A DNA stretch of 64,000 nt, from the NCBI GenBank assembly GCA_000424365.1, contig AUJT01000001.1, forward strand, positions 310,001 through 374,000, given 5' to 3'. Made by a program: the position numbers and the translations under genes. How positions within the stretch are numbered: the first letter of the stretch is position 1; every line of letters begins with the position of its first letter. This stretch comes from Lachnospiraceae bacterium NK4A144 (GTDB taxonomy: Bacteria; Bacillota; Clostridia; Lachnospirales; Lachnospiraceae). This document shows, piece after piece, positions 54,670 to 63,836 of the stretch. The notes under the pieces are model-generated. The model saw only the letters and a program-made list of their open reading frames with translations. It did no database searches and was not told where the DNA came from.

Positions 54670-55395
54670 ATGAAGCGTTTTCGTCATGAATGTAAATACC
54701 TCATTAATTACGGTGATCTGGGAGAACTCAGGATCCGTATGAAACCATATTTCAAAACAGATCCGCATACCGTAAACGGTGAGTATATGATACGAAGCCT
54801 GTATTTTGATGATATCTATAATAGCGCTTACGATGATAAGGAGAGCGGTATCTTCTTCAGAACCAAATATCGTATAAGGATATACAACTGCTCAGACTCA
54901 AGTATAAAGCTGGAACGCAAGATAAAACAGGGAAATTATATTTATAAAGAATCCGCAGCACTTACAAAAGAAGAAGTCTATAAGATAATTGAAGGTGATT
55001 TCGATTTTCTTTTACACCACGAAAATAACCTATGCAGAGAATTTTATATCGAGTGTATGTCGAAATTTATGAGGCCGAGAGTCATCGTCGATTATGAAAG
55101 AGAACCGTATATTTTAGATGAAGGCACGGTTCGTGTTACTTTTGACAAAAGAGTGCGTGCAACTTCCTTTGGCTTCGACATCTTTGATAAAGAACTTCCA
55201 ACCCTTCCTGCAATGACCTACGATAAGCTGATCATGGAAGTAAAATATACGGAGTTTCTGCCAAAGATCGTCAAGGATATGATCCCTGTAAAGGCCACAG
55301 AGTTTACAGCTGCATCAAAATACGTGATCTGCTGTGATCAGACGAAATATCTGAACGGAAGCGACTATTATATTGATGAGAGGAGTGCGTTATGA
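54670..55395 (+). CDS. VTC-domain (polyphosphate polymerase-like) protein
   Basis: 241 aa from ATG 54670 (gagga 7 bases upstream); ATG 54664 overlaps the cotH stop and adds two residues. MKRFRHECKYLINYGDL, YMIRSLYFDD, KYRIRIYN, KLERKIKQGNYIYKES, RPRVIVDYEREPYI and MEVKYTEFLP form the basic tunnel of triphosphate-tunnel/VTC enzymes. In eukaryotes VTC makes polyphosphate; here a soluble bacterial version. Strictly between cotH and DUF4956. Confidence 0.88.
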   Translation: MKRFRHECKYLINYGDLGELRIRMKPYFKTDPHTVNGEYMIRSLYFDDIYNSAYDDKESGIFFRTKYRIRIYNCSDSSIKLERKIKQGNYIYKESAALTKEEVYKIIEGDFDFLLHHENNLCREFYIECMSKFMRPRVIVDYEREPYILDEGTVRVTFDKRVRATSFGFDIFDKELPTLPAMTYDKLIMEVKYTEFLPKIVKDMIPVKATEFTAASKYVICCDQTKYLNGSDYYIDERSAL

Positions 55396-56063
55396 GCGTA
55401 AGGGATGTAATAAAAAAATCAATCATAAATTCAGAGGCGTTCACAACCTATGATATAGGCAATATAGCTCTCAAGATTTTAATAGCCGTGCTGCTGGGCG
55501 TTATAATCTTTCTAATATATAAAAAATTCTATTCTGGAGTTATCTATTCAAGAAACTTCGCAGTAACACTCATCGGAATGACTGTAATGACCGCAATGAT
55601 CACAGTAGCGATCAGTACCAATGTCGTTATCTCCCTTGGTATGGTCGGTGCACTCTCGATCGTACGATTCAGGACAGCGGTAAAAGATCCACTGGATCTG
55701 CTGTATTTATTCTGGGCAATATCAAGCGGTATAACCATAGGCGCAGGAATGAATCTGCTGGCTCTTATCGTTGCCGTCGTGATGTTTACATTGATCTGGA
55801 TTTTCTATGCGAAACAAAGCACAAATCAGGTGTATATGGCAGTGATACACTATACAGGTGATGATACCGGAGACGAGATACTTCGTGAATTAAATAAAAC
55901 CAGATATCACGTAAAATCCAGAACATTCAGAGGGACAAAGACAGAACTGGCAGTTGAAGTATATGTGAAAAATAATGATTTCTTCTTTGAAGAAAAAATA
56001 CGAAATATGCCTGAAGTTGCTGATATAACGCTCATTCAGTACAGCGGCGAATATCATGGATGA
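55392..56063 (+). CDS. DUF4956 membrane protein
   Basis: 223 aa, with three to four membrane helices in the first 140 residues (ALKILIAVLLGVIIFLIY; AVTLIGMTVMTAMITVAI; MNLLALIVAVVMFTLIWIFY) and the conserved VISLGMVGALSIVRFRTAVKDPLDLLYLFWAI. The C-terminal ~80 residues are cytoplasmic. This family regularly accompanies VTC and CotH genes. Starts with an ATGA overlap. Confidence 0.9.
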   Translation: MSVRDVIKKSIINSEAFTTYDIGNIALKILIAVLLGVIIFLIYKKFYSGVIYSRNFAVTLIGMTVMTAMITVAISTNVVISLGMVGALSIVRFRTAVKDPLDLLYLFWAISSGITIGAGMNLLALIVAVVMFTLIWIFYAKQSTNQVYMAVIHYTGDDTGDEILRELNKTRYHVKSRTFRGTKTELAVEVYVKNNDFFFEEKIRNMPEVADITLIQYSGEYHG

Positions 56064-59869: not shown

Positions 59870-60345
59870 AAAAGGAAGGGATCTTCTGATCATAGAAAGC
59901 TAATAGAAATGCTTGAAGATGTAAATGATTATACGATCCCGATAGTTGGGAACGAGGCGTTAGTAATTACTGGGGAAATGTTTTATTCCAAAAATGTCTG
60001 AAATCTTCAAAATTCAGGGATCAATTAGATGCTGCTGTTAATGATCTGAAAGATTATCTTTCTAAGGAAAGAATTTCCGGTATGATCGATAAATACCGCA
60101 AAGTAACGGAGCACTTTGCCTATGCCGAACCCGATCTTGAATTTATGAAGATAACAAAAGAGAACTATAATGAGATAGCAGCAAAAATACCTGTTTTGGG
60201 CAATATCCAGCGGCATAACCGTTGGTGCAGGGATGAATGTGCTGGCTCTTATCGTCGCAGCTGTCATGCTGGCATTGATATGGTTCTTCTATGCAAAGCG
60301 CTGATATAACGCTAATTCAGTACAGTGGCGAGTATCATGGTTGAT
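59870..60345 (+). pseudogene. Decayed second copy of the cotH-(VTC)-DUF4956 tail
   Basis: Reads as pieces of the genes at 52841-56063 joined by deletions. 59873-59942 matches CotH (KGSSDHRKLIEMLEDVNDYT); 59945-60190 matches a later CotH part (SWERGVSNYWGNVLF ... MKITKENYNEIAAKIP); about 60195-60300 matches DUF4956 (FWAISSGITVGAGMN, IWFFYAKR) in another frame; 60302-60345 matches its last residues (ITLIQYSGEYHG). The VTC gene is entirely lost. Divergence from the intact copy shows it is a paralogue, not a recent duplication. Confidence 0.85.
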
Positions 60346-60462
60346 TTATGCCATATGTTTCAACTAGCAGTTAAATGACAATTCTGTCGTCTGATTGTAA
60401 AATTAGAATATGCCTTGTCCTAAAAGGGCAGGGCATAAACTTTTATTTAAGGAGAAGTCATA

Positions 60463-60843
60463 ATGAAGATCAGAACAGATTTTGTCACAAACTCAAGCAG
60501 CAGTAGTTTTGTAATCGCCAGAAAAGGGGAGCTTAGCAAAGAGCAGAAAGAAAAAATAATCGAATATGTTGAGAGGATGTATCTTGGCAAAAAAATTCTT
60601 TCACCTGACAGTACTGAGGAAGAAATAACAGCTTTTTTTGATGACGATTATGAATTTCATGATGAAGAAAAGCAGGCTGAAGTAAGAGAAGCTCTGAAAA
60701 AGGGTATGACCATTTATGGCGGATATGTGAGCTTTGAAGAATGTGAGTATTATTATCAGGATATGTATCAAGATATTTGGAAAATTCTGGAAAAAACCGA
60801 TCCGGATAGTTTCTGTGGTATCAGCACTGATCTTGATTATTGA
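60463..60843 (+). CDS. Small acidic protein with Ser-rich N-terminal motif
   Basis: 126 aa. Starts MKIRTDFVTNSSSSSFVIA: five consecutive Ser at 11-15. The remainder is acidic and Tyr-rich (FEECEYYYQDMYQDI), without membrane helices. The N-terminal motif recurs in Clostridia proteins as I recall, often near radical SAM genes, but has no described function that I know. The next gene, 21 bases downstream, is a radical SAM protein, so this may be its substrate or partner. RBS aaggag. Confidence 0.75.
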   Translation: MKIRTDFVTNSSSSSFVIARKGELSKEQKEKIIEYVERMYLGKKILSPDSTEEEITAFFDDDYEFHDEEKQAEVREALKKGMTIYGGYVSFEECEYYYQDMYQDIWKILEKTDPDSFCGISTDLDY

Positions 60844-60864
60844 TAAATATGGAGAAGTAAAACG

Positions 60865-61935
60865 ATGAAGTTCAGAAAAGAAAAAGATTTTTTCTCCATG
60901 TTTGATGAAAAAACCGGCACGTATATTCGAAGTGGAGTCATCTGCAATGGAAAAGACACTGGAAAAGATCCCTTTATGACATCGTTCCCGGAATTACTGG
61001 ATATAGGAATTATGGGACACTGTATTCACGGCAAAAAGGGGCTGTGTATAAAAGCAGGAGTTGAATGCTATCAGGATGGTCTAAATTCCACAGCAGAAAA
61101 TATGCATCTGGAAGATTTCGAGAATATCGCAACCCAATGCAAAGGAAAAACCTATCAGTTTGCATTAGGCGGATGCGGTGATCCGGATCAGCATGAAAAT
61201 TTTGAGGATATTTTAAAAATATGCAGAAAGAACGGGATTGTACCGAATTTCACAACATCCGGTCTTGGCATGAATGATAGAATTGCAAAATTGTGCAAGG
61301 AATATTGCGGTGCCGTTGCAGTCAGTTGGTACAGAAGCCAGTATACGGTTAATGCAATTAATATTCTTCTACAAAATCATGTAAAAACAAATATTCATTA
61401 CGTATTGAGTAAAAATACGATTTATGAAGCATTGGAGCTTTTAAATAATAATGGATTTCCTAACGGTATAAATGCTGTTGTTTTCCTTCTTCATAAACCA
61501 ATAGGATTGGGAAGAACGGAGAACAATGTTGCCGTAACAGATAAGGCTTTTCATGATATCATGCAAATTATTGCAAAGAAAAAATTTCCTTATAAGATTG
61601 GCTTTGATTCATGTACCGTTCCTGCAATAATAAACATGTCGGACGACTTTGATCTGGATTCCGTTGACACCTGCGAAGGTGGAAGGTGGTCAGCGTATAT
61701 CTCATCCGATATGAAGATAATGCCGTGCAGTTTCGATAATCAGCAAAAAAAATGGTCTGTCGATCTTAGGACATTCTCGATTGAAGAAGCATGGAACAGT
61801 CCCAAATTTGATGATTTCCGAAATCATTTCAAGACATCTTGCCCTAACTGCGCCCAAAAAGATCATTGCATGGGAGGCTGTCCAATAGTTCCGGAAATAG
61901 TATTATGTAATCGAAGTGAGAGGATAGTTTCCTAA
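60865..61935 (+). CDS. Atypical radical SAM protein with SPASM-like C-terminus
   Basis: 356 aa. FPELLDIGIMGHCIHGKKGLC continues to a third Cys: Cys53, Cys61, Cys68 (CX7CX6C) in place of the usual CX3CX2C. The barrel continues with FALGGCGDPDQHENF and TTSGLGM, and VAVSWYRSQYTVNAI. The C-terminus has a SPASM/twitch-like Cys group (CSFDN; CPNCAQKDHCMGGCP; VLCN). This layout suggests a peptide- or protein-modifying enzyme with more than one iron-sulfur cluster. Target unknown; the preceding Ser-rich protein is the prime candidate. RBS ggagaag. Confidence 0.8.
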   Translation: MKFRKEKDFFSMFDEKTGTYIRSGVICNGKDTGKDPFMTSFPELLDIGIMGHCIHGKKGLCIKAGVECYQDGLNSTAENMHLEDFENIATQCKGKTYQFALGGCGDPDQHENFEDILKICRKNGIVPNFTTSGLGMNDRIAKLCKEYCGAVAVSWYRSQYTVNAINILLQNHVKTNIHYVLSKNTIYEALELLNNNGFPNGINAVVFLLHKPIGLGRTENNVAVTDKAFHDIMQIIAKKKFPYKIGFDSCTVPAIINMSDDFDLDSVDTCEGGRWSAYISSDMKIMPCSFDNQQKKWSVDLRTFSIEEAWNSPKFDDFRNHFKTSCPNCAQKDHCMGGCPIVPEIVLCNRSERIVS

Positions 61936-61981
61936 CAGTAGCAAATAAATGTCCATTAACGACTAATACTACAAAGATAAT

Positions 61982-62026
61982 AAAAACACTTACGTTACCG
62001 TAGAAATGCGAAACGTAAGTGTTTTT
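61982..62026 (+). terminator. Strong terminator after the radical SAM gene
   Basis: AAAAACACTTACGTT / AACGTAAGTGTTTTT, perfect 15-bp stem ending in T5. Confidence 0.93.
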
Positions 62027-62064
62027 ATACTACACGTTGTCTCATTCAAAGGAGCTATTTTATA

Positions 62065-62237: not shown

Positions 62238-63836
62238 ATGAAAAAAACTTACAATGTATTAGACGAACCGTGGATACCTGTTAAGTATCTTAATGGCAAG
62301 AAATCAATCCTAAGTCTTATTGATGTTTTGGAACAGGCAGACAAAATAGAAGATATTCTTCCGCCGGTATTCAGAAATGACACTGTTTATATCTACTATG
62401 TGGGCATGATCCGACTGCTGACTACCATAATTGAGGCAGCGTATTACAAAAAGGAGACAAAGTATGCTTCAAAAAATCTGAAATACCTTGATGTTTTGAA
62501 TGAACAGGGGCTGAATTCCGAAGTTGTCAAAAACTATCTTGAAAAGTATCATGACCGCTTTGATGTACTTTCGGAAACTCACCCATTCCTACAAAATATT
62601 AACCTTAAGCCGGAGCTTGAGACTGCTGATCATTCAAATAATGCTTTTCTAACATGGAACCCTATGGCACCGTCCGAAAACAACTTCATTTTCGGACGTA
62701 CAAGGCGACAAATCGAAGGGTCAAAGAACAATACGTCTATTCTTTCTCAGTATCAGATAGTAAAAGAAGAATTCGTACATATACTTATCTATCTAGCGAC
62801 TATGGGAAATTATCCGGCCGCTACAGTATCATTAGAAAGTTCTCTAGGAAAGAAGATAAGCATTTTTGCTGTAATAAAGGGTAGAAATCTTAAAGAAACT
62901 ATTCTTGCAAACATTCTTCCTCTCGATGAAAGCTCAAGACCTTTGGAAGATGACGAAATTCCGGATATGCCGGTATGGGAAATGGAAAACATCCATGATA
63001 TCGAGAAATACGATAAAGATCAGTTCGTTCATAACCTTCTTTGTAGAGCGTTTTTTCCAGGCATATCAGTTTTAGGGGCAGGTTTTAATGAGGATGGTCA
63101 GCTTACGGGAATGGTTCGTAATCGTATAACCAAACGTATCGACCCAAAATATGGTCCTTCTTATGAAATGACGAACTCCATATCCGATCTTGTAGCAGAC
63201 CCATTTGCAATAGTGTCATATAAAGGTGATGATGGAAAGTTCGTAACGATTCCTTTTGATCCGATAAGGAATACTGCTCATGGCATTTGCATAATGGCTA
63301 CAAAGCATACTGATAAATGGAACAACTGTAAAATAATAAATAACCGAAAGATAGATAATGAATATAAGGTCCAAATATATTATCGGGAACTAGACGGAAT
63401 GAATGTTACTTTACGCAGTTGTGGCGCATTAAATAATTGTAATGGGGATATATGGGAAAAGCTAAAGGATACTGATAATCATATTCAGGCAGTAAAGTAT
63501 CAGGAAAACTACAGTAAAGCGAGAAGTCATCTTAAAAGAACACTTTCTACTGCACTGGCAGGATCAACTGTAATTTGTTCATCAGCAGAAAAAGAACTGT
63601 CTGACTGGATGGAACACGATTTCTTTACAAAGTTTTCAGAAGATCTTTCAAAAGAAGTCAGTAGTGCTGCATTAACGGCAACAGATCGGTTGGTTAAAGA
63701 GACAGTACATATTTTTGATAAATATACAGAAACTTCTGATTCCTTTTTTACTGTTGTAAGTGAAAGACGGGCTCTTGCTAGTCATCTTAAGAAAATAGCG
63801 CAGATCAAGGAGAAGGATAAAAATGGAAGAAAGTAA
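62238..63836 (+). CDS. casA: Type I-E CRISPR Cascade large subunit CasA/Cse1
   Basis: 532 aa. YNVLDEPWIPVKYLNGKKSILSLIDVL is the Cse1 N-terminus; FLQNI, GNYPAATVSLESSLG, the GRTRRQIEG loop and the C-terminal four-helix bundle follow. In Cascade it recognises the PAM and recruits Cas3. No cas3 gene precedes it in the window; it may lie elsewhere or downstream. casB overlaps its 3' end. Confidence 0.93.
   Translation: MKKTYNVLDEPWIPVKYLNGKKSILSLIDVLEQADKIEDILPPVFRNDTVYIYYVGMIRLLTTIIEAAYYKKETKYASKNLKYLDVLNEQGLNSEVVKNYLEKYHDRFDVLSETHPFLQNINLKPELETADHSNNAFLTWNPMAPSENNFIFGRTRRQIEGSKNNTSILSQYQIVKEEFVHILIYLATMGNYPAATVSLESSLGKKISIFAVIKGRNLKETILANILPLDESSRPLEDDEIPDMPVWEMENIHDIEKYDKDQFVHNLLCRAFFPGISVLGAGFNEDGQLTGMVRNRITKRIDPKYGPSYEMTNSISDLVADPFAIVSYKGDDGKFVTIPFDPIRNTAHGICIMATKHTDKWNNCKIINNRKIDNEYKVQIYYRELDGMNVTLRSCGALNNCNGDIWEKLKDTDNHIQAVKYQENYSKARSHLKRTLSTALAGSTVICSSAEKELSDWMEHDFFTKFSEDLSKEVSSAALTATDRLVKETVHIFDKYTETSDSFFTVVSERRALASHLKKIAQIKEKDKNGRK

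Follow-up and report, generated by a model that had tools for sequence, protein, structure and literature searches.

Radical SAM enzymes with a SPASM domain each modify, as far as is known, a single peptide or a single protein family. Where such enzymes mature RiPPs, the substrate gene usually lies beside that of the enzyme. Sulfatase maturases (anSME) and QhpD-like modifiers are SPASM enzymes with proteins instead of short peptides as substrates, again one protein family each, the substrate motif of anSME being C/S-x-P-x-R. Leaders of the Nif11 and nitrile-hydratase types combine one N-terminal leader family with many cores, in RiPP precursors whose leaders are cleaved. In the FxsB/FxSxx systems of conflict islands, as described in PMC7159879, a SPASM radical SAM enzyme is accompanied by a neighbour in which a short motif is conserved. 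Compared to these systems, the enzyme analysed here, found in a window of 64,000 nucleotides (the whole stretch of DNA under study), belongs to one family that, in nearly all loci and genomes examined, goes together with a short N-terminal tag. This tag is found on at least 40 body groups and occurs in plasmids, phages and bacteria assigned by record title to several phyla. The association of enzyme and tag is near-obligate, the tag is N-terminal in position and modular in its attachment, its conservation is at the protein level, and enzyme and tag covary. The two genes of the window probably encode a substrate and its dedicated enzyme, the tag being recognised whatever the body behind it and oxidatively modified within residues F7-S13, a reading to which we give a probability of about 0.8.

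The two-gene locus and its enzyme

An earlier note on this DNA had described an acidic protein of 126 residues encoded 21 bases upstream of a radical SAM protein of 356 residues, and both open reading frames lie where it placed them, separated by the gap 60844-60864. The N-terminus of the small protein (ORF checked on the sequence) is MKIRTDFVTNSSSSSF, also given as MKIRTDFVTNSSSSSFVI, with the opening residues MKIRTDFVTNSSSSSFVIARK. The features of the unit are:

60449-60454, plus strand: ribosome-binding site AAGGAG (GGAG type) of the tagged gene, from the sequence.
60463-60510, plus strand: 16-residue N-terminal tag MKIRTDFVTNSSSSSF, from the sequence, the profile of 178 unique tags and low AlphaFold2 confidence (pLDDT below 50 at residues 1-4 and 7-11).
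60463-60843, plus strand: 126-residue tagged acidic protein, tag plus predicted folded alpha/beta body; body group of 42 members among the fetched loci.
60851-60857, plus strand: ribosome-binding site GGAGAAG (GGAG type) of the enzyme gene, from the sequence.
60865-61935, plus strand: 356-residue radical SAM/SPASM enzyme, a relative of PHROG 7293 (domain hits, AlphaFold2, Foldseek).
61021-61068, plus strand: codons of the putative cluster cysteines C53 (61021-61023), C61 (61045-61047) and C68 (61066-61068), from the sequence; C53 and C68 are invariant in the 55-row alignment A6.
61612-61908, plus strand: auxiliary/SPASM cysteines C250, C270, C288, C326, C329, C335, C339 and C348 (55-row alignment).
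61980-62028, plus strand: terminator-like hairpin at the end of the two-gene unit (-23.5 kcal/mol, z -7.8).

The decayed region and the strong terminator that were said to flank the unit are both recognisable. On the 5' side (about 60188-60341) lie pieces of a decayed DUF4956 gene, a duplicate of the intact copy at 55392-56063 to which they are piecewise 76% and 88% identical. On the 3' side the hairpin 61980-62028, absent from the terminator-scan list despite its energy and z score, is followed by a CRISPR Cse1 gene (62238-63836). A further terminator-like hairpin (60409-60437) is located immediately 5' of the tagged gene and follows closely on a promoter-like site (60375-60403); it is possibly a leader attenuator or the end of an upstream unit. 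The source genome contains one enzyme and one tag by profile search. In a search of 61 genomes of relatives, the enzyme is present in 2 of the 37 genomes of the genus, its own and a 60% identical one (G015), and three genomes outside the genus give weak partial matches, which shows the two-gene unit to be patchy in distribution. The same pair of tagged gene and enzyme is found in a sibling of the same genus (L003).

The SPASM-like group of cysteines previously seen at the C-terminus of the enzyme corresponds to PF13186 (E 5.5e-7) and TIGR04085 (27.8 bits, with the cut-off at 27). SPASM is the sole match above a curated cut-off in Pfam and NCBIfam, the enzyme falls far below every equivalog cut-off listed, and no Pfam or NCBIfam family matches the small protein above cut-off, in agreement with the view that the genes do not represent a named class. 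Rejected families include TIGR04317, the tungsten cofactor oxidoreductase maturase (41 bits against a cut-off of 380), and the NirJ2, PqqE and mycofactocin families, for which the scores are far below the cut-offs or weak. Prokaryotic viperins were likewise rejected: the pVip model gives 13.4 bits (E 0.009) with the window enzyme and 49 bits (E 1e-13, over 108 residues) with a plasmid relative (L010), the C-terminus being of the SPASM type in both. The AlphaFold2 model of the enzyme (pLDDT 95, pTM 0.92) has as its nearest solved folds by Foldseek SuiB (E 5e-13), PqqE, anSMEcpe, SkfB, CteB, TigE and ChlB, with BtrN and viperins as more distant neighbours; these neighbours are mostly peptide- or protein-modifying SPASM enzymes. 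A sequence search of the PDB with the enzyme returned only a pentatricopeptide chain (E 5e-4).

The window enzyme is predicted to have a radical SAM fold with three cysteines (53, 61 and 68) for a putative cluster, in the atypical spacing CX7CX6C that had been reported for it. Related loci (n=122) were taken from a profile scan, as the best 80 of 180 relatives on genome contigs together with 42 on viral contigs. The triad is conserved among them: the spacing is CX7CX6C in 110 (107 plain, two with one extra Cys and one in an interrupted frame) and the canonical CX3CX2C in 12. With CX7CX2C in the enzyme of phage RB16, the unusual spacing resembles the canonical motif with two insertions of four residues each. 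At the C-terminus, C250, C270, C288 and C329 are invariant, and C326, C335, C339 and C348 are present in at least 90% of the rows of the 55-row alignment. The enzyme ORF of one phage locus (L132:1728-3317) carries a long N-terminal stretch with putative repeats, which we take to be NUMOD3-like, as if a homing-endonuclease segment had been fused to or inserted at the gene.

The tag and the proteins that carry it

The consensus of the first 16 residues is MK-[IVF]-[RK]-x-[DG]-[FY]-V-[TS]-N-S-S-S-S-S-[FY]. As the relaxed regular expression used for tags presets residues 2, 4 and 6-12, conservation is quoted from an HMM scan across the 122 loci (13,857 stop-to-stop segments), which gave 178 unique tags (each counted once) and favours tags resembling its 38 training rows. 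Variants such as NSSDSS are caught by the relaxed motif scan and missed by a narrower one. Among the 178 tags the counts are K2 177, [RK]4 178, D6 166, [FY]7 178, V8 171, T9 174, N10 178, S11 177, S12 178, S13 173, S14 162, S15 166 and [FY]16 176. Positions 14 and 15 also accept T, A, C, N and other residues, so that the constant part of the tag is F7-S13. The Ser-rich motif had been put forward as a recognition tag or modification site; its role as a tag is supported, and its modification would follow only under the mechanism proposed below. AlphaFold2 models the window protein with pLDDT of at least 90 at 88 of its 126 residues and below 50 at residues 1-4 and 7-11, the most conserved stretch being the one predicted to be disordered. 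Within its body group (42 members) identity is 0.91 in the tag versus 0.44 in the rest of the protein.

A start codon is found at tag position 1 in 176 of 177 cases (160 ATG, eight TTG and eight GTG, the remaining one being ATA), and an SD-like site precedes 166 of 177 unique tags in the related loci versus 23% for any ATG of the same loci. A chance low-complexity Ser run was ruled out by the fixed place, the start codon, the ribosome site and the HMM. This location, at a start codon behind a ribosome-like site in 166 of 177 cases, would also suit a DNA or RNA element, such as a translation start enhancer or regulatory site, that is translated by accident. However, the seven codons of N10-[FY]16 have 154 DNA spellings among the 178 unique proteins (126 loci), some of them arising from amino-acid variants at positions 14 and 16, and both AGY and TCN codons are used at every Ser position. 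This indicates that selection on the tag acts at the protein level; the accidental element is already contradicted, and we give it next to no credence.

The bodies behind the tag are diverse. When 172 tagged proteins (at least 60 residues, none cut by a contig end) were grouped by blastp at 1e-4 with single linkage, their bodies fell into 40 groups without detectable similarity, the proteins being 61-919 residues long. As judged from these sequences, the tag is a portable N-terminal motif on at least 40 body groups, common to bacteria, plasmids and phages. The suggestion of a candidate modification pair is borne out as to the association of tagged protein and enzyme, but the term 'pair' is too narrow for a tag of such range. 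All but one of the 172 proteins are net negative (median -11 per 100 residues; 1086 other ORFs from these loci have -1.2), and a single one has a membrane-like stretch; proteins so strikingly acidic invite comparison with DNA-mimic proteins. A Pfam scan of 12 tagged proteins from related loci identified one PQQ-type beta-propeller and three BspA-type leucine-rich-repeat proteins. On beta-propeller/BspA-type proteins the tag stands in place of a signal peptide (L059:7056-9815, L064:7063-8547, L069:7063-9210, L079:7076-9724). The window protein found no match in a PDB fold search (best E 3.3) and one weak match in a PDB sequence search (E 0.14), a tagged phage protein searched against phage records gave one irrelevant match, and a search of E. 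coli genomes for near DNA matches gave none.

The tag may be thought of as a docking or delivery motif only, the enzyme modifying the body or a third molecule and leaving the tag unmodified, as in leader peptides. SPASM peptide maturases as a rule recognise their substrates through a leader, the model of the window protein shows its N-terminal tag as disordered, and the enzyme has a fold like that of SuiB, which was solved with its precursor. However, no common reactive site is evident in the bodies, because the 40 groups share no detectable similarity, and the tag is conserved residue by residue over its Ser run. Docking alone is in our judgement unlikely, and modification within the tag is preferred.

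Association of enzyme and tag in genomes, phages and plasmids

In a six-frame scan at least one tagged ORF was found at 117 of the 122 enzyme loci, namely 78 of 80 genome loci and 39 of 42 viral loci, the latter figure counting near-identical viral contigs (e.g. L101/L103/L106/L113; L119/L120, equal to L007/L008) as separate loci. The other five (L028, L057, L094, L099, L128) are cut by contig ends 323, 54, 338, 482 and 77 bases from the enzyme match. The neighbourhood of the two genes, noticed at first in the window only, is thus the rule, and their being kept together in 117 of 122 loci indicates that the pairing is not due to chance; in part, enzyme and tags might travel together by descent. 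All tags but one lie on the strand of the enzyme, and in 96 of 117 loci no more than 500 bases separate the enzyme match from the nearest tag start; for a limit of 2 kb the number is 114. By record title the genome loci belong to Lachnospiraceae, Selenomonadaceae, Erysipelotrichaceae, Synergistaceae, Bacteroidales, Anaerolineaceae and others, many being metagenome bins, and the 27 genomes for which tags per genome are given (of the 80 behind loci L014-L093) have one to five tags each.

The reverse comparison, with a 24-column profile of 38 tags (E at most 1e-3) and an enzyme profile (E at most 1e-40) run on the same genomes, gave a similar result. In the class sample (391 genomes) the enzyme is present in six genomes and the tag in seven, and in the phylum sample (398 genomes) in ten and 11, respectively, one genome (G000) being common to both samples. 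Every enzyme genome has a tag (6/6 and 10/10), on the same contig and within 2 kb; in one (G725) two contigs each hold a part of the enzyme, one part lying next to the tag. The lone tag match without an enzyme, which turns up in both samples (G123, E 1.7e-4), lies in a 58-residue frame that has neither a start codon nor MKxR and is most likely there by chance. Even when this match is counted against the association, Fisher p values for co-occurrence are 1.5e-12 (class) and 4.5e-19 (phylum).

Phage arrays contain up to eight tagged genes at one locus. Of 50,697 phage records, 172 encode a distant enzyme, which is 26-28% identical in the 20 rows listed; 164 of the 172 bear the name of Klebsiella, Enterobacter, Cronobacter, Citrobacter or Escherichia. 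No tag lies within 4 kb of the enzyme in RB16, and the tag profile identifies two tagged proteins about 20 kb away, RB16p106 (155 residues, N-terminus MKIRSGFVSNSSSSSFIIGIG) and RB16p111 (170 residues, N-terminus MKIRSGFVSNSSSSSFIVRFP), whose sequences differ after the tag. Relatives of the two are present in 174 and 175 phage records, with counts per genus (the level of this comparison) nearly equal to those of the enzyme. Seven T4-like phages were searched whole: RB16, RB43, phT4A and KP15 have the enzyme and two tagged proteins, and T4, RB69 and RB49 have neither enzyme nor tag. Whole-record searches found no tag in three virus records that encode the enzyme (5, 18 and 67 kb, with ends near the enzyme) and may be fragments. 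The same holds for the record of LR756500, an uncultured phage of 462 kb whose radical SAM protein is 23% identical. A VWA-type protein, RB16p109 (HM134276.1, 67920-70139), is encoded between the two tagged genes of RB16, and a DUF2828/DUF7788 (VWA-type) protein upstream of the enzyme in eight loci, five of them identical (L106:2432-3982 and seven more).

Eight records of a plasmid collection match the enzyme, and four were examined. The Agrobacterium pAt (conjugative), Rhizobium and Rhodobacter plasmids encode a 32-34% identical enzyme with an MK[IL]KMDFVSNSSSTSF protein directly upstream, and a Vagococcus plasmid with a partial, 28% identical relative has no tag in the whole record. The tagless relatives in LR756500 and Vagococcus, neither of them among the 122 loci, suggest that the association ends somewhere in the superfamily. 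On the former three plasmids (L010:1559-4972; also L011 and L012) a SMEK-domain gene and a gene for a protein of 120-121 residues precede the tagged gene and enzyme, PADLOC labelling the SMEK-domain protein of L010, the Agrobacterium version, as Aga REase-PNTD and Avs2-like; this gene set looks like a defence operon. An XRE-type (helix-turn-helix) regulator is present in 18 of the 80 genome loci (L014-L093), ten times just before the tagged gene and eight times just after the enzyme. Taken together, the phage arrays, the Avs2-like SMEK NTPase, the XRE-type regulator and the VWA-type neighbours suggest a role in phage-host conflict or in the assembly of complexes.

The tag also varies with the class of enzyme. 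At CX7CX6C loci all 146 unique tags have Arg at position 4, and 13 of the 14 at CX3CX2C loci have Lys there; Thr occupies position 14 in one of 146 and nine of 14, respectively, the counts excluding 18 unique tags of 12 loci with unparsed spacing and two of one misparsed locus. Shared descent may be partly behind this covariation. It bears on a further explanation, by which the tag would be a targeting or assembly signal for another factor (cell position, phage particle or VWA complex) and the enzyme would merely co-travel with a separate function. The recurrence of VWA-type neighbours in phages (RB16p109 and the eight DUF2828/DUF7788 loci, five identical) and the acidic, soluble nature of the tagged proteins (171/172 net negative, 1/172 with a membrane-like stretch) are consistent with such a signal. 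Against it, the enzyme class covaries with tag position 4, the link between enzyme and tag persists in phages whose genes are 20 kb apart, and, apart from the enzyme and tagged-protein groups, the 70 commonest neighbour groups listed each occur in at most 18 of the 122 loci. We consider it a poor candidate, less probable still than docking alone.

Proposed modification and comparison with known systems

From the association in sequence data we infer that the enzyme acts on the tag. It would bind the free, disordered N-terminus of an otherwise folded acidic protein, independently of the body behind the tag, and oxidatively modify one residue within F7-S13 on the intact protein. The departure of most enzymes from CX3CX2C, the two tagless distant relatives and the three tagless virus records count against this reading, as would partial co-travel by descent. 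The modified tag would probably not be removed, and may give its carrier proteins a shared property, e.g. docking, stability or activation. The nature of the modification can be guessed at. Our first choice, tentative and somewhat short of an even bet, is an intrapeptide cross-link of Phe/Tyr7 to residue 9 or 10, [FY]7-V-[TS]9-N10 fitting the aromatic-x-x pattern known from cyclophane-forming SPASM enzymes. A Ser/Thr side chain oxidised as by anSME comes second as a rather unlikely guess, and epimerisation or other changes would rank after both. We see about an equal chance for and against a general N-terminal 'radical tag' in bacteria, plasmids and phages, in which dozens of unrelated full-size proteins would receive the same carbon-based modification from one enzyme, as a protein-marking system and not a RiPP pathway. 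If the tag is modified, the system would be a portable one for marking proteins, with an unusual spacing of the cluster motif and probably new chemistry, and the tag could be used as a genetic handle. It would also provide the first function for PHROG 7293 and PHROG 7397.

In searches of the open-licence PMC literature, judged by titles and the starts of abstracts, no paper found describes a tag-enzyme system of this kind, and the main texts of PMC9062424 and PMC10352776 contain no SSSS string. Two phage families annotated as of unknown function are related to the system. PHROG 7293 is the phage family of the enzyme (E 1e-26), and the first 25 residues of PHROG 7397 resemble the tag, with weak matches to several tagged N-termini (E 8.5e-5 to 0.08; window protein 0.043).

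FxsB/FxSxx systems are similar in that tag residues 7-9, [FY]-V-[TS], formally constitute an F-x-S/T triplet. However, the motif is here N-terminal on large proteins, whereas FxSxx is located at the C-terminus of a short peptide. Membership in FxsB was rejected, no FxsB model being among the NCBIfam matches at E up to 1. As to anSME, anSMEcpe is among the top folds of the enzyme; membership was rejected, as C/S-x-P-x-R is missing from the tag profile and no anSME model is among the NCBIfam matches.

A classical RiPP precursor was rejected as a description of the tagged proteins, which are too large (61-919 residues), the window protein being folded in its model and the conserved part being the first 16 residues. 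In contrast to proteins with Nif11- or nitrile-hydratase-type leaders, those carrying the tag reach 919 residues and include beta-propeller and leucine-rich-repeat proteins. The closest solved folds are those of SuiB (streptide synthase; E 5e-13), CteB, SkfB, TigE and ChlB, which like the present enzyme combine radical SAM and SPASM domains. Unlike the substrates of SuiB-type maturases, those proposed here are full-size and folded, are conserved at the extreme N-terminus and comprise many unrelated proteins for one enzyme, and the tag is without a Lys-Trp pair and, in nearly all cases, without Cys. The system would belong with the modification of genetically encoded substrates by radical SAM enzymes, and the chance that it represents a separate kind is real.
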